A stretch of DNA of 57,075 bases from Rhodoferax sp. OV413 (GTDB lineage Bacteria > Pseudomonadota > Gammaproteobacteria > Burkholderiales > Burkholderiaceae_C). Under the pieces are notes generated by a model. That model worked only from the letters and a program-made list of their open reading frames with translations, was not told the origin of the DNA and did no database searches. The translations under genes and the position numbers were made by a program. Shown here piece by piece: positions 7,633-16,180 of this stretch (the stretch's first letter is position 1; every line of letters begins with the position of its first letter). The stretch lies in the NCBI RefSeq assembly GCF_945881795.1, contig NZ_CAMCVG010000003.1, forward strand, positions 1-57,075. Reading direction: 5' to 3'.

Positions 7633-9249
7633 TCAGCTGGATTGCAAAGCGGGAAATCGCGACTGCGCGAGGCCGGGGATGGATGCGCGTTGTGGGCTGT
7701 GCCCGTCCTGTGCGAGCTTGAAGGTGGCGACCGAGGCCACAAGCTGATCGGCTTCGTGCTTGAGGCTGCCGGCCGCAGCGGCAATCTCTTCCACCATCGC
7801 CGCGTTCTGCTGGGTGGATTGATCCATACGCGAGATCGCGTGCCCCACCTGTTCTACGCTGTGCGCCTGGGTCTTGCTGGCCGCGCTGATCTCACTAATC
7901 ACCCGCGTGACCTGCTGGATGGAAGCCACCACCGTGGTCATGGAGTCGCCGGCCCTGCTAACCAGTTCGTTGCCGCGCTCGACGCGCTCCACGCTGGTGC
8001 CGATGAGGGACTTGATTTCCTTGGCGGCCTGCGCTGAGCGGCCGGCGAGCGACCGCACCTCCGAGGCTACCACCGCAAAACCCCGGCCCTGTTCGCCCGC
8101 GCGCGCCGCCTCCACGGCGGCATTGAGCGCCAAAATATTAGTTTGGAAGGCAATACCGTCGATCACGCTAATGATTTCCACGATCCGGCGCGAGCTTTCA
8201 TGAATGTCGTGCATGGTCTGCACCACCTCGGCCACCACTTCGCCGCTGTGCGCCGCCGCGTGCGAGGCGTCGCGCGCCAGATCGTCCGCGCTCATGGCCC
8301 GCTCTGCGTTGACCCGCACGGTGCCACCTAGGTCCAGCATAGAGGCGGCCGTTTCCTGCAAAGCGCTGGCTTGCTGTTCGGTGCGTTCCGATAGGCTCTG
8401 ATTGCCCGATGCGATTTCGGAGCTGGCGTTCGCCACTGCGACCGAGGCCTGCCGCACCCCGCGCACCACATCGGCCAGACTCTGCTGCATTTGTTGCAGC
8501 TGCCCCATCATGCTGCTTGCGTCGCCGTAGCCGATGGAAATTGCCGCACTCAGATCGCCCGCGCCCACACGCTGCGCGACTTCTTTAGCCTCTTGGGGTT
8601 CGCCACCGAGCTGCCCTGTGATGGTGCGCACTGTGCCAGTCCCAAACACCACCGCAAACCCCAAGCCCGCCACAATCAGGCCGATGCTGGTCCACAGCAG
8701 CGTCTGGTAGCGGGCAGAGGCGTTTTCAAAGGCCGCCCGTGCGCCGTCAATCTGCAGTTGCTTGAGGGCATCGATGCCCGTCTTCATCGGCTGCGCCAGG
8801 GGCGTCATCTTGTTGATCATGGCCGCTTGCGCTTCGGTGATGTCGTTGGCCTTCAGGGCCTCGACGGCCACCTGAATGCCCTTGTCGTTGAATTCGGCGT
8901 ACATCTTTTCCCAGCTGTCGGCTTGCGCTGACTCGGATGCTGCCAGAGGAATACTACGGAAATTCTTCCAGCGCTGCGCGATTTCTTGTTGATTGGCGGC
9001 GATGGCTTTCACACTGAAAGTAACTACATCCGGCACCGGATTCGACAAGGCCTGCGCCACATGCATGCGCGAGCTGATGGTGAGTGCATCAATTTGCCCC
9101 AACTCGACGGCGGGCACGGTCCGTTGCTGGTACACGACTTCCAGCGAGAGGTTCGATTGACGGGCGCCGTAGACCCCGAAACCACCGATGAGCACCAGCA
9201 ACGTGGCCAATGCTGCAATCAGAATCAGAAGTCGGGTCGATATACGCAT
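7633..9249 (-). CDS. Methyl-accepting chemotaxis protein
   Basis: This is a 538-aa inner-membrane chemoreceptor. It has TM1 at about residues 7-29, a periplasmic four-helix-bundle-type sensor of about 155 residues, TM2 near 188-210, a HAMP segment, and a long cytoplasmic signalling coiled coil. The conserved hairpin tip with [22 protein letters not shown] is intact, followed by [17 protein letters not shown]. Adaptation-type Gln/Glu-rich stretches flank the tip. The ATG at 9249 has GGGG 5 nt upstream and is preferred over a GTG two codons earlier. No CheR-tethering pentapeptide is seen at the C-terminus. The ligand cannot be predicted. It lies next to the chemosensory-like module but is separated from it by 211 bp. 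Confidence 0.9.
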
Positions 9250-9422
9250 GAACACCCCAATTTGTTAAAATTGATATAAATAGAGATATCTCACTGTATT
9301 TATTTGAGGTGACGTTTTGATGACAAATTCTTAGCCTGTCAAAGGCATGAAATTTGTAAACGTTTTGCGAAAAAAATGGGGAGGGCGCCGTGAAGAACTC
9401 ACTGCCCCAAAAGACACTGCGG

Positions 9423-9447
9423 GTTCCCCGAGCTGACGTCGGGGAAC
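9423..9447 (-). terminator. Hairpin after the cheY-like gene, possible terminator
   Basis: A perfect 9-bp inverted repeat (GTTCCCCGA / TCGGGGAAC) with a 7-nt loop lies 14 nt after the cheY-like stop on the minus strand. The T-run (TCTTTT) only comes about 9 nt after the stem, so termination efficiency is uncertain. The rest of the gap to 9250 is A/T-rich and probably holds the chemoreceptor promoter, but I cannot assign boxes with confidence. Confidence 0.5.
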
Positions 9448-9460
9448 ACACAGGGGCAAA

Positions 9461-9826
9461 TCAGCCGACCAGCTTTTTGAACGAGGCCAAGACCGCTGCG
9501 CCGTTGAATGGCTTCACGATCCAGCCCTTGATGCCGGCAGCCTTGCCGCGCTCTTTCATGGCGGGAGAGTTTTCGGTGGTGAGCATCACGATGTTGACCG
9601 CCGCATTACCCAACTCGCCACGCACTTTTTCAGCCATGGTCAGGCCGTCCATGTTGGGCATGTTCACGTCGCACACGATCAGCTTGATGGAGGGGTCCGC
9701 CTTCAGCTTGGCCAGGCCGTCGCGGCCGTCCACTGCAAACGAAACTTCGAAGTCGTTGCTCTTCAAGAAATCGCCAACTTCGTTGCGTACGGTGCTGGAG
9801 TCGTCAACCACAAGAATTTGTGCCAT
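9461..9826 (-). CDS. CheY-like single-domain response regulator
   Basis: This 121-aa stand-alone receiver domain has all key residues: acidic pair D8-D9 (VVDDS), phospho-acceptor D53 (VCDVNMPNMDG), a switch Thr in MLTTENS and the conserved Lys in WIVKPF. It has no output domain, so it signals by protein contact, as CheY does. It is the last gene of the five-gene minus-strand module. The two CheX-like proteins upstream are candidates to dephosphorylate it and the CheA-like protein to phosphorylate it; these roles are inferred from context and motifs. The small size and strong similarity to chemotaxis CheY leave open whether it contacts flagellar motors or another target. Confidence 0.9.
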   Translation of the reverse strand: MAQILVVDDSSTVRNEVGDFLKSNDFEVSFAVDGRDGLAKLKADPSIKLIVCDVNMPNMDGLTMAEKVRGELGNAAVNIVMLTTENSPAMKERGKAAGIKGWIVKPFNGAAVLASFKKLVG

Positions 9827-9846
9827 GTTATTTTCCTTTCAAAATA

Positions 9847-10821
9847 CTAGAAGAGTTCAAGTTCGCCCGAGGCTACCAGCGTATCCAAAGATTGATCGTT
9901 TTCGTGGAAATCTTCCGGCGACCAGTTCAGATTGAACACAAAACGTTGATAGATGACAAAAGGCGGAACGGCCGGATTATCTCTATCTGTTAAGACACAT
10001 TTGAAACACAGCTGCGGATTGATGGATCCGAACGAAATGTAACGGTGCATGTGGTTGATCACGATGGGCACCTGCGCCAAATGCGTTTGCACCGGCTTGA
10101 ATGCGCTGTAGCGGTTTTTGAACGCGCCCCAGATCAGGTTGGTGATTTCGCCCAAGATGCCGTTCAGGTTGCGGAAGTCATCTCCCTCGACCGAGGTGAT
10201 GTGGGTCTTGTTAGCCTTGACCAGGGTCAGCAGCGGGCCTTCTTCGGCTTGCAGCGTCATGTAACCGCGGCACCAGTCGCTCTCGATGGGGATCAGTGTG
10301 AAGATCTCACCGAAGATCAGACGGTCGCGCACGATGTAGGGCGTATCAATCTGCACGCTCAAGCCCTTGAATTGGCTCTCCAGAGATGCCTGAGTCATCT
10401 CTGCGATACCGCGCACCAGCTTAGGCGGGTAAACCAGGCTGAAGATGCTGGTTTCGATGACTTCCCTGAGGGTGTCGATGGTGTCGTTGGTGTAGATACC
10501 GGCAAAGGCTTCACGCTCGAACGCGTTCAGGTCATCAGCAGTGGTTTTCGATTCCCGGCGCAGAAAGATCGGCAGCTCTGGGCGGATGCGGTGTATCTGC
10601 AATCCGATTTGCAGTCCCTCACCGCGCCTTTCGCCCAGGTCTTCGGCAATCATGATGCCGCCCAAGTCAACATTGGAGCGCAAAACAGACAGCAGGTTCC
10701 CTTCCAGCACTTTCAGCGCCTTCAGGTTGTTGGATTCGCAAAAAGCGCGGATGTGCCTACGGCTTTCGGCGCTGTTATCAAGCACCAACACTTTACTTAC
10801 CAGGGATTTGTCGTCGGACAT
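9847..10821 (-). CDS. CheX/CheC-type protein with N-terminal degenerate receiver domain
   Basis: The 324-aa protein starts with a receiver-like domain (VSKVLVLDNSAESRRHI), but the phosphorylation region reads GGIMIAEDLGERRGEG rather than a clean DxxMPxMDG, so phosphorylation is doubtful. The C-terminal half carries LGEITNLIWG, which fits the E-x2-N active-site motif of CheC/CheX/FliY phosphatases. The chain ends LVASGELELF. A second CheX-like protein encoded just upstream ends TGELEFL, so the two share a tail. The likely role is to remove phosphate from the neighbouring CheY. The assignment comes from motif reading, not a search. Spacing is 17 nt to the preceding gene and 20 nt to cheY. Confidence 0.7.
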   Translation of the reverse strand: MSDDKSLVSKVLVLDNSAESRRHIRAFCESNNLKALKVLEGNLLSVLRSNVDLGGIMIAEDLGERRGEGLQIGLQIHRIRPELPIFLRRESKTTADDLNAFEREAFAGIYTNDTIDTLREVIETSIFSLVYPPKLVRGIAEMTQASLESQFKGLSVQIDTPYIVRDRLIFGEIFTLIPIESDWCRGYMTLQAEEGPLLTLVKANKTHITSVEGDDFRNLNGILGEITNLIWGAFKNRYSAFKPVQTHLAQVPIVINHMHRYISFGSINPQLCFKCVLTDRDNPAVPPFVIYQRFVFNLNWSPEDFHENDQSLDTLVASGELELF

Positions 10822-10838
10822 AGTGAGGACCCTAAAGG

Positions 10839-11393
10839 TTATAAAAATTCAAGTTCGCCGGTGGTTTCGGCGACGGCTGGCGTGTCTAGCTCAAAGTCGA
10901 GGTCTTTGTATTCACACACACACATACTCAAGCGGAAGCGAACGCCGGACTGCAGCAGAAGTTCAAAATGCTGCAAGTGCCCATACTTCAGCAGCGTCAG
11001 GTGCTCCGCACAACGGCTGTCAATAATGTTGGGGGTTGACATGCCGATGTGTGTAAATGCGCGCCCCAGTTCACGGTTGAACGTGCCACAGCAGAGGTTC
11101 CCGCATTCCGAGATGGCATCGTCAAACATTCGGTTGTCCATGGCCTCCGCACTCAATCGGGTCTTGCCGGCAAAGTGAGCCAAGGTGGCGGGGTCGCGAT
11201 CGAAATAAATCATGATCAGCAGCCGGAATTCGTACGAGGCAACGGACAGCATCACCATCTCTTTTTCAAAGACCGGTTCAATGTTCGCCACTTCACCCAA
11301 GCTTACGACTTCATCCTCCGGCCGCAACAAGGCGCTGCGCATGCCCTGAATGAGCATGGAGTTCATCAACGATTTTGCGCGCTCACTGATCAT
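10839..11393 (-). CDS. CheX/CheC-type small protein
   Basis: This 184-aa soluble protein has the sequence ISECGNLCCGTFNREL around residue 95, matching the E-x2-N-(x3)-G helix of CheC/CheX phosphatases. It lacks the receiver domain seen in the next gene. It is Cys-rich for its size, with two Cys near the motif, one in DSRCAEH and two in MCVCEY. The C-terminus TGELEFL resembles that of its neighbour. The start codon lies inside the last codons of the upstream MCP-like gene (11-nt overlap), so the two are likely translationally coupled. The phosphatase role is inferred; it might instead be a phosphate-sensing partner. Confidence 0.65.
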   Translation of the reverse strand: MISERAKSLMNSMLIQGMRSALLRPEDEVVSLGEVANIEPVFEKEMVMLSVASYEFRLLIMIYFDRDPATLAHFAGKTRLSAEAMDNRMFDDAISECGNLCCGTFNRELGRAFTHIGMSTPNIIDSRCAEHLTLLKYGHLQHFELLLQSGVRFRLSMCVCEYKDLDFELDTPAVAETTGELEFL

Positions 11394-12120
11394 GCTGGTT
11401 CGGCATGGAAAGAGTGGCTTGGGTCTTGCGGTTGATCAGGTCAAGACCTGTGACAGCACCAATGATCATCTTCCCGCCGGCCTGCATGTCCTGGAAGGTC
11501 GCGGTGGTGATGAGATCGTTTTCGTACAGGGCTCGGCGGTATTCCTTTGACAAGGCCTCGGCGCGGCTGGCAAGGCTTCGCATTTCCTCTGCCACCACCG
11601 CAAAACCGCGCCCCATCTCCCCGGCACGTGCGGCTTCGATGGAGGCGTTCAGTGTCACGATGATCATCTGCTGCACGATGCGTGCGAAATCATCGTTCTT
11701 GGAGTGCATGCCCTGGTTGTGGGTCAGCAGAATGCTCATGTCCGCGTGCCAGCGGTCGAAGGTCTTGCTGATGCCCAGAAGCTCAGTAATGGACTTAGCC
11801 AAGACTCCGCTTTGTTGATAGGCCTCGCCCTGCATGCCCTGGGTCTGGCTGAGCAGCTGATGAAAAGCACTCTGGTGGCTGCGATCTAGCTCTTGGCGCT
11901 GCAGCTCCAAGTCGGCCTGGGCGTTGCGAAGCGATTCGGCCAGTGAGTCCAACTCGCTTTGCAGGTTTTCGATGGTTGCTTGCTGTTCGTCGGACTGCGC
12001 CTGTGCTTCGGACGCGGGCACCATGGTGGCCAATTGGCGCTTCAAGCCGCGATTGAACCCCGCCCAAATGCCCCCACCGATCCCCAGTCCGGCAACAAAT
12101 GCAATCAATAGTTCTGCCAT
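11383..12120 (-). CDS. Short MCP-like signalling protein with one N-terminal membrane segment
   Basis: The protein is 245 aa. Residues 3-22 (ELLIAFVAGLGIGGGIWAGF) form a Gly-rich membrane helix, with no periplasmic sensor. A coiled coil (about 40-105) follows, then a shortened MCP hairpin with [28 protein letters not shown] (split about residues 170-197). The start at 12120 fits this; upstream in-frame residues look non-coding. It would sit at the membrane and offer a kinase-contact tip without its own sensor. That suggests it takes its signal from the neighbouring kinase or from the cytoplasm. It overlaps the small CheX-like gene by 11 nt and follows the kinase gene by 17 nt. Confidence 0.8.
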   Translation of the reverse strand: MAELLIAFVAGLGIGGGIWAGFNRGLKRQLATMVPASEAQAQSDEQQATIENLQSELDSLAESLRNAQADLELQRQELDRSHQSAFHQLLSQTQGMQGEAYQQSGVLAKSITELLGISKTFDRWHADMSILLTHNQGMHSKNDDFARIVQQMIIVTLNASIEAARAGEMGRGFAVVAEEMRSLASRAEALSKEYRRALYENDLITTATFQDMQAGGKMIIGAVTGLDLINRKTQATLSMPNQHDQ

Positions 12121-12137
12121 CGTTGTCACCGCCCCGC

Positions 12138-14477
12138 TCAGGCTGAGGTTGCTACTGCAAATTTTGCCGGAAGGGTAATGACTGTCTCGAACGGGCAATA
12201 GGTAGATGTCGTGTCATCGGATGTCAGCGCGAGGGCAATCTTTCCGCCCTCGGCTTCGATAAAGCCCCGCACCGCATCCATTCCCACGCCCCGGCCCGAG
12301 ACCTCGGTTACCTGGCTGGCGGTAGAGAAACCGGAAGCAAAAATCAACTGAGCGATGTCGCTGGCAGATTTTTCTTCGCCTTCGACCAGGATGCCTTGTT
12401 CCACTGCTTTTGCACGGATGCGTTGCAGGGGAAGACCACGGCCGTCGTCCTTCAGGCGAATGTTGAGGTGCTCAGAGTCGAGGCTAATGGTCAACTCGAT
12501 AGTTCCTGTTTCGAGCTTGCCGGCTTGTGCGCGCTCAGCAGCCGTTTCCAGACCGTGGTCCATGGCGTTGCGATACAGGTGCATAAACACATTGCGCAGA
12601 GTGTCGGCCAACTGCGAACGGACCAGAATGCCGCCTTGCTCCATGACGATCTTGGGCGAAGGCTTGCCCAACTCTTGTGCCAGAGAGGGGATAGATTCGG
12701 TCACGCCGCTCAGAATCCGCGACAGGGGTTCGCAGCCCAGGCGCTGCAGAGCGTTACGCGCAGCTTGCAGTGCTTCAGCTTGCTTTTTGGCGTCATTGCT
12801 GTTTGCTGCAGCGTCCAGCTGTTCAATCAAGCCCTTCACAGATTCCTGCGGCACCATCAACACGCTTTCACTGTTGACGCGGCGGCCGGCACCCTTGCGG
12901 CCGAGCTTGGTTTCGTTGATGTGTGCGTAGTACTCGACAGCTTCCACGGTTTGCTTGAGCTCCGCTTTGAGCAATTCGGTGTCCCACTCGCGGTTGCCGT
13001 GGCGGATGCCGTCGTAGGTTTCTTCGGCCTGGTGAACGACGTTGGTCAGGTTCAGGAGGCCGTAGGTGCGGGCGTTGCCCTTGATGGTGTGCATGTTGCG
13101 GAACAGCACGCCGATGGACTCCTTGCGTGCGGCCGCGTCCATGGCTGCGGCTGCGTCGATCAGCTTTTCGTTTTCTTGCAAGAACTGTTGCGCGCTGGAA
13201 ATGAATTCCTGGAACTTTTCCTGACGCACTGCCAAGATTTCGCCAATGATGGCCAGCTCTTTTTTCTGGGCATCGGCCGCGCGGGCCAGGGCTCGCAGTT
13301 CTGTCACGTCCCGCAAGCACAGCAGCAGGCGCAAGGTGGTGCCGTTTTCGTCGGTGATGGGTGACCAGTTCAGGTCCAGGACCTTGATCGTGCCATCAGG
13401 CATGGTCTTGGAGATTTCCTGGGGCAGCAAGTGCGCGTTGAACTCGAAGTTCATGTCGCTCTCGCCGATACAGGCGCTGATGGCGGTTTCCATCTGATTC
13501 AAGATGTCAACGCCCAGACCGGTTTCGTCGAACACCACATTCATCACGTCTTTGCCGGCAATTTCGTCAGACACCAGGACGGTGCGCAAATGGTCGGAGT
13601 ATTCGGGGTGAATCAAGCCGCCGGTTTCCAGAGTCAAGATGCCTTGGGGGATGTAATGCAACATCGCGTGAATGTCGGCGGTCTTTTGCTTGACTTCTTC
13701 GGTGCTTTGTTGAATTTTCTCGATCATCGCGTTAAACGCGACCACTGACCGGCCGATTTCATCCATGCGGGTCACCGGCACCCGGTGCGAAAAGTCCTGG
13801 CTGGTGGCGATTTCCGTCATCTTGGCTTCCATGTCGCCGATGGGGTGAATCACCTGCCGGTACAACAGCAATCCCATGAAGCCCAAGCCCAGCACAGCAG
13901 CCAAAGTCACAACGGCCAATGTGCTGGTCGTGGCGCGCAGGTTGGAGTTCACGGTGGAAATCGCATCGTCCTTGCTACGGCGTTTTTCCACTTGCACGGT
14001 CTCAATCACGCTGATTTGTTCACGCAGGTACTGGTCCACTGTGGCGGCCATGGTGGCTTCGGCCATTGGCTTTTGACCTTGGAGCATGAAGTTGGCGGTG
14101 TCATCAATGCCACCGAAGTAATTCAGCAGGCTTTCCTCGGCCTGCTTGATGAGGCCGCGCTGCGCATCGCTGTCCGCGGTGGCCATCTGGTCGGCCAGTG
14201 CGTTCTGCAGCTCGGCTTTCTTGAGCTTCACTTCTTCGTGGGTCTTGCTGATGGCGTCTTTGTCTGGCGCGTTCACCATGGCCAGCGTTGCGATTTGCAC
14301 GTCTTTCAGTTGCCCCATCAAGGCAACTGATTTCAAGCTGCTGGGCACCACGCCTTCGGTCACCATCTTCACTTCCTTGCTGCTGCTGGTGTTTTGAAAC
14401 ACTGCAAAACCACCGGTGAAGATCAAGGCCGCGAAACTGAGGGCGATGAGCAGAAGGATTCGTTGACGGATGTTCAT
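12138..14477 (-). CDS. Membrane CheA-like histidine kinase (HAMP, PAS-like, Hpt, HATPase; no CheW domain)
   Basis: This 779-aa protein combines a receptor and a CheA-like kinase. TM1 (about 7-29), a four-helix-type periplasmic part and TM2 (about 165-190) are followed by HAMP, a PAS-like domain (HYIPQGILTLETGGLIHPEY), and an Hpt domain whose NMHTIKGNARTYG motif puts the phospho-histidine at about residue 463. The ATPase has the N-box LYRNAMDHGLE and G-boxes DDGRGLPLQRI and SGRGVGMDAVRGF, closest to CheA. The chain ends soon after the ATPase, so the SH3-like P5 domain that binds CheW and receptors is missing. It heads the module. The start at 14477 is preferred because upstream residues are not family-like. 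Confidence 0.85.
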   Translation of the reverse strand: MNIRQRILLLIALSFAALIFTGGFAVFQNTSSSKEVKMVTEGVVPSSLKSVALMGQLKDVQIATLAMVNAPDKDAISKTHEEVKLKKAELQNALADQMATADSDAQRGLIKQAEESLLNYFGGIDDTANFMLQGQKPMAEATMAATVDQYLREQISVIETVQVEKRRSKDDAISTVNSNLRATTSTLAVVTLAAVLGLGFMGLLLYRQVIHPIGDMEAKMTEIATSQDFSHRVPVTRMDEIGRSVVAFNAMIEKIQQSTEEVKQKTADIHAMLHYIPQGILTLETGGLIHPEYSDHLRTVLVSDEIAGKDVMNVVFDETGLGVDILNQMETAISACIGESDMNFEFNAHLLPQEISKTMPDGTIKVLDLNWSPITDENGTTLRLLLCLRDVTELRALARAADAQKKELAIIGEILAVRQEKFQEFISSAQQFLQENEKLIDAAAAMDAAARKESIGVLFRNMHTIKGNARTYGLLNLTNVVHQAEETYDGIRHGNREWDTELLKAELKQTVEAVEYYAHINETKLGRKGAGRRVNSESVLMVPQESVKGLIEQLDAAANSNDAKKQAEALQAARNALQRLGCEPLSRILSGVTESIPSLAQELGKPSPKIVMEQGGILVRSQLADTLRNVFMHLYRNAMDHGLETAAERAQAGKLETGTIELTISLDSEHLNIRLKDDGRGLPLQRIRAKAVEQGILVEGEEKSASDIAQLIFASGFSTASQVTEVSGRGVGMDAVRGFIEAEGGKIALALTSDDTTSTYCPFETVITLPAKFAVATSA

Positions 14478-14694: not shown

Positions 14695-14722
14695 AAAAGA
14701 AAAAAACTGGGCGCCTCGCCCT
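14695..14722 (-). terminator. Rho-independent terminator of chrA
   Basis: On the minus strand GGGCG-AGG-CGCCC is followed by AG and a T-rich run (TTTTTTTCTTTTTT), about 90 nt after the chrA stop. This cleanly separates chrA from the chemosensory module. Confidence 0.8.
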
Positions 14723-14809: not shown

Positions 14810-16180
14810 TCATGCCAACAGGCGCACCACAAGCCCCGTCAGAGCCGCGCCGGCGATGACCTGTATGACACTGCGCTTCCACACGAAAAGCGCCACGGCT
14901 GCGCTCAGGGCGATGGCGATGGCCATGAGGTCCATGGGTCCATCCGGGCCCAGCGGCCATAGGACGTGCTGGCCGAAAAACAGGGCCAGGTTCAGGATCA
15001 CGCCCACAACCGCAGCGGTAATGGCGGTCAGAGGCGCAGTGAACTGAAGTTGGTTGTGCGTACTTTCCACCACCGGGCCGCCTGCCAAGATGAACAAAAA
15101 TGACGGAAGAAAGGTGAACCAGGTTACCAATGCAGCGGCCGCGACTCCTGCAAGAAACATCTGGTCAGGCCCGAAAACAGCTGTGACGTAGCCTCCGACA
15201 AAACCCACAAATGCCACCACCATGATCAGCGGACCGGGGGTGCTTTCGCCCAGCGCCAAGCCGTCCATCATTTGCGCGGGGCTGAGCCAGCCGTAATGCC
15301 TGACAGCCCCTTGAAACACGTAGGGCAGCACCGCATAGGCGCCGCCAAAGGTCAATAAGGCCGCCTTGGTGAAAAACCAGGCCATCTGGGTCAGGGTGTG
15401 GTCCCAGCCGCAGTACACCGCCAGCAGGCCCATGGGTGCCGCCCACAAAAGGGCGCCAAAGGCCATCACCCGGGCCAGCCGGGGCCAGCGGAAGCGGGCG
15501 TGTTCAGGGGTCGGGGTCCGGTCGTCAATCAGTGCAGGGCCATACGAGGCCTGCCCCGCGCGGTGCCCGCCTCCCAGCGCGAACGCTGCGGGCGCAATAC
15601 GGCCACCCACCAGACCCGCCAGGGCAGCTGCGCCAACAATGAGTGGAAAAGGCAGCTGTAGACCGGACATGACCACAAAAGACACCGCAGCGATGCCCCA
15701 GAGCCACCTGTTCTTGAGGGTGCGCGCGCCCATGCGGTGCGCGGCCTGCAAGACGATGGCCGCGACCGCAGGTTTGATGCCATAAAAAAGACCTGCGACC
15801 CACACCACATCACCAAACGTGACGTAAACCCACGACAGCGCCACTAACAAGAAGAAGGACGGCAGCACAAACAACGCGCCGGCCACTATGCCGCCCCAGC
15901 TGCGGTGCATCAGCCAGCCGATGTAGGTCGCGAGTTGCTGCGCCTCCGGGCCGGGCAGCAGCATGCAGTAGTTCAGGGCATGCAAAAAGCGCTTTTCGGA
16001 AATCCAGCGGCGGCGCTCCACCAGTTCCTGGTGCATCAGGGCGATTTGGCCTGCAGGCCCGCCGAAGCTGACGCAGCCCAGCTTCAGCCAGAAGAGGAAG
16101 GCCTGCCTGCGGCTCACTTCCGGCGGTGCTGCTTCGCCGGACGTGCGTTCAGCATCGGAGGGTAAGGGCTGCTGGGGCAT
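14810..16180 (-). CDS. chrA: Chromate transporter
   Basis: ChrA exports chromate from the cytoplasm through the inner membrane. The 456-aa protein has the long bidomain form: a first CHR domain (FLFWLKLGCVSFGGPAGQIA ... LLPGPEAQQLATYIGWL) and a second (FFTKAALLTFGGAYAVLPYV ... LGESTPGPLIMVVAFVGFV), with about ten hydrophobic segments in total. Both FGGP/FGG and PGP motifs are intact. It stands downstream of nadB with 40 nt between, and no chrB regulator is visible. It might be read through from nadB. Homologues do not all confer chromate resistance, so the substrate is by family only. Confidence 0.9.
   Translation of the reverse strand: MPQQPLPSDAERTSGEAAPPEVSRRQAFLFWLKLGCVSFGGPAGQIALMHQELVERRRWISEKRFLHALNYCMLLPGPEAQQLATYIGWLMHRSWGGIVAGALFVLPSFFLLVALSWVYVTFGDVVWVAGLFYGIKPAVAAIVLQAAHRMGARTLKNRWLWGIAAVSFVVMSGLQLPFPLIVGAAALAGLVGGRIAPAAFALGGGHRAGQASYGPALIDDRTPTPEHARFRWPRLARVMAFGALLWAAPMGLLAVYCGWDHTLTQMAWFFTKAALLTFGGAYAVLPYVFQGAVRHYGWLSPAQMMDGLALGESTPGPLIMVVAFVGFVGGYVTAVFGPDQMFLAGVAAAALVTWFTFLPSFLFILAGGPVVESTHNQLQFTAPLTAITAAVVGVILNLALFFGQHVLWPLGPDGPMDLMAIAIALSAAVALFVWKRSVIQVIAGAALTGLVVRLLA

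Follow-up and report, generated by a model that had tools for sequence, protein, structure and literature searches.

A conserved five-gene module of chemosensory parts, with a sensor-bearing CheA-type kinase and no CheW, in Rhodoferax sp. OV413 and its relatives

Canonical chemosensory systems (the F, Tfp and ACF classes) are assembled from CheA, CheW, methyl-accepting chemotaxis proteins (MCPs) and CheY. In the accessible part of a large survey (PMC10782961), CheW is counted as one of the four core proteins of every system, a CheW domain is reported in 100% of 13,673 CheA proteins, CheA has no sensor domain, and both CheW and the P5 domain are treated as belonging to the core of any chemosensory system. 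Here we describe a locus that fails these defining features yet is built of the same parts. It comprises five open reading frames, all on the minus strand, at 14477-9461 of a stretch of 57,075 nucleotides from Rhodoferax sp. OV413 (contig NZ_CAMCVG010000003.1 of GCF_945881795.1, a host assembly of 2.35 Mb in 148 contigs); this whole stretch is called the window below. Like canonical systems, the locus has CheA-type P1, P3 and P4 domains, an MCP tip, a CheY and CheX-type phosphatases; unlike them, it has no CheW, CheR, CheB or CheD, its kinase carries a sensor of its own and has no P5, and its MCP is sensorless. An earlier note, made from the letters of the window, had read the locus as a departure from known chemotaxis arrays on the strength of the missing P5, the absence of CheW from the unit and the kinase-borne sensor, and that reading stands.

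The genes, which we call KIN, MCP, CHX1, RECX and CHEY, follow one another closely. KIN (12138-14477) encodes a membrane sensor kinase of 779 residues with a four-helix-bundle periplasmic sensor, HAMP, a PAS-like region, a P1/Hpt domain (H463), P3 and a CheA-type P4. Seventeen nt further on, MCP (11383-12120) encodes 245 residues with one N-terminal membrane helix, a long coiled coil and an MCP hairpin tip, and it overlaps by 11 nt with CHX1 (10839-11393), whose 184-residue product is a predicted CheX-fold protein with E96-x2-N99. After 17 nt comes RECX (9847-10821; 324 residues), in which a degenerate receiver, with Glu60 in place of the phospho-Asp, is joined to a CheX domain (E225-x2-N228), and after a further 20 nt comes CHEY (9461-9826), a stand-alone receiver of 121 residues with D8, D9, D53, T83 and K105. 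Chance or decay is ruled out by the five open frames and the invariant catalytic residues described below; the module that the earlier note observed, compact layout included, is confirmed as real.

How widely does the set recur? A RECX profile scan of 84,980 species genomes returned 263 relatives, the best 80 of which were kept, a sample that leans to close kin. Six loci from the host's relatives were added; 89 loci were read and 86 were scored, with thresholds of our own setting, after L012-L014 had been removed as copies of L027, L032 and L038. All five genes stand together in 68 of the 86 loci, which makes their association more than chance, and the remaining 18 are partial, several of them at contig ends (in L059 and L085, KIN falls under threshold). 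The order is that of the window in 51 loci and KIN-RECX-CHEY-MCP-CHX1 in eight, and KIN comes last in nine, two of these on the other strand; across a tree of 103 RECX proteins (L020 left out, root arbitrary) the order class changes 18 times, against 43 in shuffles. Gene order is thus reshuffled, and the five-gene set is kept. The hosts are beta- and gammaproteobacteria (Comamonadaceae, Aquabacterium, Herbaspirillum, Paraburkholderia, Pandoraea, Rhodocyclaceae, Methylococcaceae and Pseudomonas), and the nearest named relatives of the window RECX belong to a Comamonadaceae metagenome-assembled genome (MAG) and Curvibacter sp. CHRR-16. In a phylum-wide spread of 299 genomes, full-length RECX was found in three, the host included. 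A locus labelled Akkermansia muciniphila (L031, a MAG) carries a module of betaproteobacterial type, placed with Rhodoferax in the tree, and probably comes from a mislabelled or mixed bin.

Sensor and kinase are, as the earlier note had it, one protein with a CheA-type core. Pfam places 4HB_MCP_1, HAMP, Hpt and HATPase_c above cut-off in KIN, and a profile of 34 KIN proteins aligns to the P3-P4 part of solved CheA (residues 282-494 in a chain of 654, E 1e-54) and also to P1. The proposed PAS-like domain fares less clearly: a PAS match is seen, at a score below the Pfam cut-off only. The kinase was also said to lack P5, and it does, since the profile match to CheA stops before P5 and the Pfam families seen in the 34 proteins do not include CheW; P2 is likewise missing from the domain make-up. 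Hpt and HATPase_c are present in 34/34, HAMP in 26, the four-helix bundle in 19 and 7TMR-DISM in 3, so the kinase core stays and the input varies, and H463 is invariant (34/34). Sensor histidine kinases resemble KIN in uniting a membrane sensor, HAMP, a PAS-like region and a kinase, and in having a single receiver partner; KIN differs from them in that HisKA is not among the Pfam families of the window protein and the 34 members, the phosphoacceptor being an Hpt/P1 domain and the ATPase of the CheA type. CheA3 and CheA4 of R. sphaeroides are also non-classical CheA proteins with domains missing, but, according to the accessible parts of two sources (PMC2829493, PMC10782961), they keep P5 and act in a receptor cluster. 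The survey set, as far as the accessible part of PMC10782961 describes it, was drawn from recognised CheA proteins, and KIN-like proteins may therefore not have entered it. Two homologues of KIN are much longer: a protein of 2010 aa (L145, 4181-10213) is fused to Ser/Thr protein kinase, AAA and GAF domains, and another (L052) has 2011 aa. Small secreted and porin-like proteins are encoded near KIN in L029, L037, L038, L039 and L085 and are possible sensing partners; two of the small secreted proteins and one porin-like protein were scanned, with no Pfam match.

The MCP is sensorless, as had been noted. In the window protein Pfam matches MCPsignal at positions 44-95 of 172 only, and this family is present in 37/37 members; no sensor and no periplasmic domain was found, and 68 of 73 proteins show a single N-terminal membrane helix in a simple hydropathy test, which permits an upstream start. 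The tip residues N158, E162, G167, G172 and F173 are kept in 37/37, and the tip aligns with the receptor tips of solved arrays; just before the turn it is unlike ordinary receptors, with QVV or the like in place of QTN. Further conserved stretches are unusual, namely W124, N135 and N-D-L-x-T-T-x-T-F-Q near 201-210.

Two CheX-type proteins with the E-x2-N motif had been proposed, one of them with a degenerate receiver, and both proposals hold: the motif is invariant in 40/40 CHX1 and 44/44 RECX, and at the phospho-Asp position 39 of 44 RECX have Glu, 3 have Asp and 2 have Ala. The predicted structure of CHX1 (pLDDT 91.4) adopts the CheX fold, with a Foldseek match to CheX at E 2.8e-8. The chain that aligns best with it, at Z 15.8 over 147 residues and 2.6 A, is CheX of B. 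burgdorferi as solved in complex with CheY. In RECX, Pfam scores CheX at 37.6 bits and finds it in 44/44 members; the N-terminal part of the model matches receivers structurally, with no Pfam Response_reg match. CHX1 and RECX are barely alike outside their tails. They share predicted fold and motif with the CheX/CheC phosphatases of solved structure (T. maritima, B. burgdorferi, V. vulnificus and Shewanella), but here each operon encodes a pair of them, a degenerate receiver is fused to one, and both end in a GELELF-type tail. The host has a second RECX paralogue (L015, 1853-2815, C64; tail GELEFF) without an adjoining CHEY, and in the phylum sample one gammaproteobacterial family encodes short stand-alone CheX proteins of about 156 aa (L104-L109 and others). 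CHEY itself is a bare receiver, with Response_reg and no output domain; D8, D9, D53, T83 and K105 are present in 36/36, and Trp102 sits at the position of E. coli CheY Tyr106.

The tails deserve separate attention. In the window, RECX ends in GELELF (9850-9867) and CHX1 in GELEFL (10842-10859; the consensus is GELELF), and the models of both proteins are disordered there. A loose pattern, GE[LMIFV][EDQ][LFIMV][FLY] at the chain end, occurs in 81/86 RECX and 65/74 CHX1, the remainder being near variants such as GALELF, and in no other of 6020 open reading frames in the 89 loci bar copies of the CHX1 and RECX genes (these frames were called mechanically and do not equal 6020 genes). Pairwise identity over the last 6 residues is 0.88 for RECX and 0.85 for CHX1, compared with 0.32 and 0.24 over the preceding 12. 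At the level of DNA, a strict tail pattern gave 10 matches in 7 genomes, nine RECX and one CHX1, and its reversed control gave 0.

What might such a tail bind? The host's canonical cluster, with genes for CheY, CheA, CheW, CheR, CheD and CheB, offers a clue. Directly before its cheY lies the gene of a 149-residue protein (L163, 12730-13179, C38) for which Pfam gives no match up to E 10 and the PDB chance matches only. We call this protein CheZ-like because of its gene place, its tail and its FQDxxxQ motif (FQDMASQ, compared with FQDLTGQ of E. coli CheZ); it is likely, judging from these features, an unrecognised mini-CheZ. It ends in NPVTQDEMDAGSIELF. In 19 stretches of related genomes, the CheZ-like proteins by canonical cheY all end in TQ(D/A)EMD(A/V)GS[IV]ELF (18/18), and the complete CheD proteins of the canonical-cluster stretches end in GGSVDLF (4/4). 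The start of the CheZ-like tail resembles both the FliM N terminus (SQEEVDA; the host FliM begins MSESFLSQEEVDALL) and the CheZ tail (SQDQVDD; E. coli CheZ ends SQDQVDDLLDSLGF). E. coli CheZ shares with CHX1 and RECX an acidic-hydrophobic C-terminal tail ending in Phe, the host CheZ-like protein being the link; CheZ, however, is helical and not CheX, and its tail matches best over the first half, a part to which RECX shows only a loose likeness. CheZ and FliM are said, in the accessible part of PMC3774744, to use one common face of CheY. Docking of the CHX1 and RECX tails on the alpha4-beta5-alpha5 face of CheY is a possibility raised by their sequence likeness to the CheZ-like tail. The occurrence of one tail type in CHX1, RECX, the CheZ-like protein and CheD points to a common partner, which is likely to be a surface of CheY that the two pathways share, or some other shared chemotaxis component.

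The canonical cluster also bears on how independent the module is. The earlier note's statement that CheW, CheR, CheB and CheZ are missing is right for the operon, in whose unit no cheW, cheR or cheB was found, but does not extend to the genome, which has 9 CheW matches and the canonical cluster with CheW, CheR and CheB. Beside the module, a BLAST search with host proteins as queries gave no match to CheW, CheR or CheD at 1e-10 in 107 flank stretches, a set that includes copies and RECX-only loci. The suggestion that the pathway is self-contained must be given up: the host has a complete canonical cluster and FliM, the tail is common to canonical proteins, and a whole lineage has RECX and CHEY without KIN or CHX1. 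The 13 rows of the tree that have RECX-CHEY only make up this lineage, a single supported clade whose stem is long (1.41). Of 17 RECX genomes searched, three have both full-length KIN and CHX1 and 14 have neither; 13 of the 14 keep RECX adjoining CHEY, and one (G468) has RECX alone. The pair therefore does not need KIN, and CHEY in pair-only genomes must be phosphorylated by another kinase. It looks as if RECX-CHEY were the core and KIN-MCP-CHX1 a dedicated input.

Several observations connect the module to flagella. FliM is present in 42/42 RECX-bearing genomes reached through the loci. Among 220 genomes sampled from the family, FliM occurs in 26/26 with RECX and 142/194 without (p 0.0005); in a genus sample all nine RECX genomes have it, and RECX occurs in 9/22 genomes with a FliM match from position 1 and in 0/15 others (p 0.004). 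Sigma-28-like sites (at least 10 of 12 positions) lie upstream of 10/71 modules, three of the ten being one Pseudomonadaceae clade, compared with 18/570 other genes of the same loci. One genome has CHEY about 3 kb from flhA; as regular neighbors of the module, flagellar genes were rejected, since this is the only such genome among the 107 stretches.

Taken together, these data are consistent with a model, to which we give a probability of roughly 0.55, in which the module is a dedicated CheW-free chemosensory branch that runs from KIN to CHEY, is reset by tail-docked CHX1 and RECX, and has a flagellar output. We infer each biochemical step of this model from the observed gene set, order, conservation, domains, tail and FliM co-occurrence. 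KIN would sense through its periplasmic four-helix bundle, HAMP and PAS-like region. Its P4 would autophosphorylate H463, from which the phosphoryl group would pass to D53 of CHEY, as the intact, invariant residues suggest. The non-sensing MCP, anchored by its one membrane helix, may use its conserved tip in the manner of a scaffold or regulator, either to cluster KIN or to couple it to host arrays containing CheW; in either form this is the weakest step. Judging from predicted fold and invariant E-x2-N, CHX1 and RECX would be CHEY-P phosphatases, held on their target by the disordered GELELF tail, a tail of the type found at the end of the canonical CheZ-like protein, and the RECX receiver, with Glu at the phospho-Asp position, would be a fixed non-phosphorylatable module. 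CHEY-P could then act on the motor, or CHEY could compete with canonical CheY signaling or drain it.

A number of points weigh against this model. The Pfam CheX score of CHX1, 23.6 bits, is under the 27-bit cut-off, and the tail of the window CHX1 ends in Leu. RECX retains its tail in genomes without KIN and CHX1, and even where the module CHEY is missing as well (G468, also L041, L061 and L062, perhaps incomplete); whatever the tail binds is therefore not specific to the module. Alternatively, CheR or CheB may be the partner, with the tail acting as an NWETF-like peptide; the register fits this too. FliM is common in the group anyway (168/220), and RECX genomes are mostly large, so that genome size and kinship confound the link to FliM; the window itself has no sigma-28 promoter, its best site agreeing at 7 of 12 positions. 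At the position of E. coli Lys119, CHEY has Thr, Ser, Ala or Pro in 36 proteins, and the host canonical CheY is likewise without Lys there. The nearest solved relatives of CHEY are 4h60 and 4hnr, which we take to be V. cholerae CheY4. A CheY4-type protein is reported, in the accessible part of PMC3774744, not to bind FliM. The missing Lys119 equivalent and this nearest relative together make direct motor binding by CHEY doubtful.

Could CHEY and RECX be a drain instead? On this account the pair would be a phosphate sink for the canonical CheA, with phosphoryl groups hydrolysed fast by tail-docked CheX proteins, and KIN, MCP and CHX1 would have been added later to tune the drain by a second stimulus. 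The 13 pair-only loci of one clade and the 14 of 17 RECX genomes without full-length KIN and CHX1 speak for it, and a sink role is proposed for such a CheY in the accessible part of the CheY4 paper (PMC3774744). We nonetheless consider it unlikely, given that a dedicated kinase is encoded with CHEY in 68/86 loci and that the pair-only clade, on its long stem, may have changed function. Quite unlikely, in our estimate, is an accessory input, in which the short MCP would join the host CheW/CheA arrays and KIN, CHEY and the CheX proteins would modulate canonical CheY-P; the fully kept tip residues, their alignment with solved-array tips, the host's CheW proteins and canonical cluster, and the tail common to the CheZ-like protein and CheD would all fit, but the tip before the turn differs from that of ordinary receptors, and the flanks are free of CheW, CheR and CheD. 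Might the output not be flagellar at all? Control of pili, biofilm or second messengers, as in the ACF class, would suit a bare receiver and the GGDEF/EAL genes that flank some loci; those neighbors, however, stand at varied distances and on both strands, and FliM was found in every RECX-bearing genome checked, which leaves this account very unlikely.

A broader proposal goes beyond the dedicated branch favored above, and we offer it tentatively, as doubtful on present evidence: that the module represents an undescribed chemosensory class of beta- and gammaproteobacteria, with a receptor-CheA fusion, a sensorless MCP tether and no CheW, and that a tail code, G-x-[LIV]-[ED]-[LMF]-F, may dock CHX1, RECX, mini-CheZ and CheD on one surface and so couple two pathways. 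If the reading of the module is right, the kinase core of CheA can dispense with both CheW and P5 and work under a direct sensor, the module is a natural minimal five-protein system for rebuilding receptor-kinase coupling and CheY-P turnover, and the short tail motif is a directly testable candidate for a docking code that links parallel chemotaxis pathways. No description of the five-gene set was found in the open-licence literature, a search outside which most subscription papers fall. Two leads were set aside: the Flm pathway of Comamonas is described in the accessible part of its source as a full chemosensory pathway, and MotV/MotW of Vibrio is, as far as the accessible text goes, a different system.

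The surroundings of the module can be summarized briefly. Upstream of KIN, a chrA-like gene ends at 14810, and a terminator-like stem from the terminator scan (14709-14721, minus strand) probably marks its end. At the other side, 3' of CHEY, a 9-bp hairpin read by eye (GTTCCCCGA / TCGGGGAAC; 9423-9447, minus strand), which is not in the terminator-scan list, is a possible transcript end; promoter and terminator sites were no commoner in the scan than in shuffles. About 200 nt downstream of CHEY lies an ordinary TarH/4HB-type MCP gene (7633-9255, minus strand), and the nearest relative (L021) likewise has an MCP gene close downstream of the module on the same strand.

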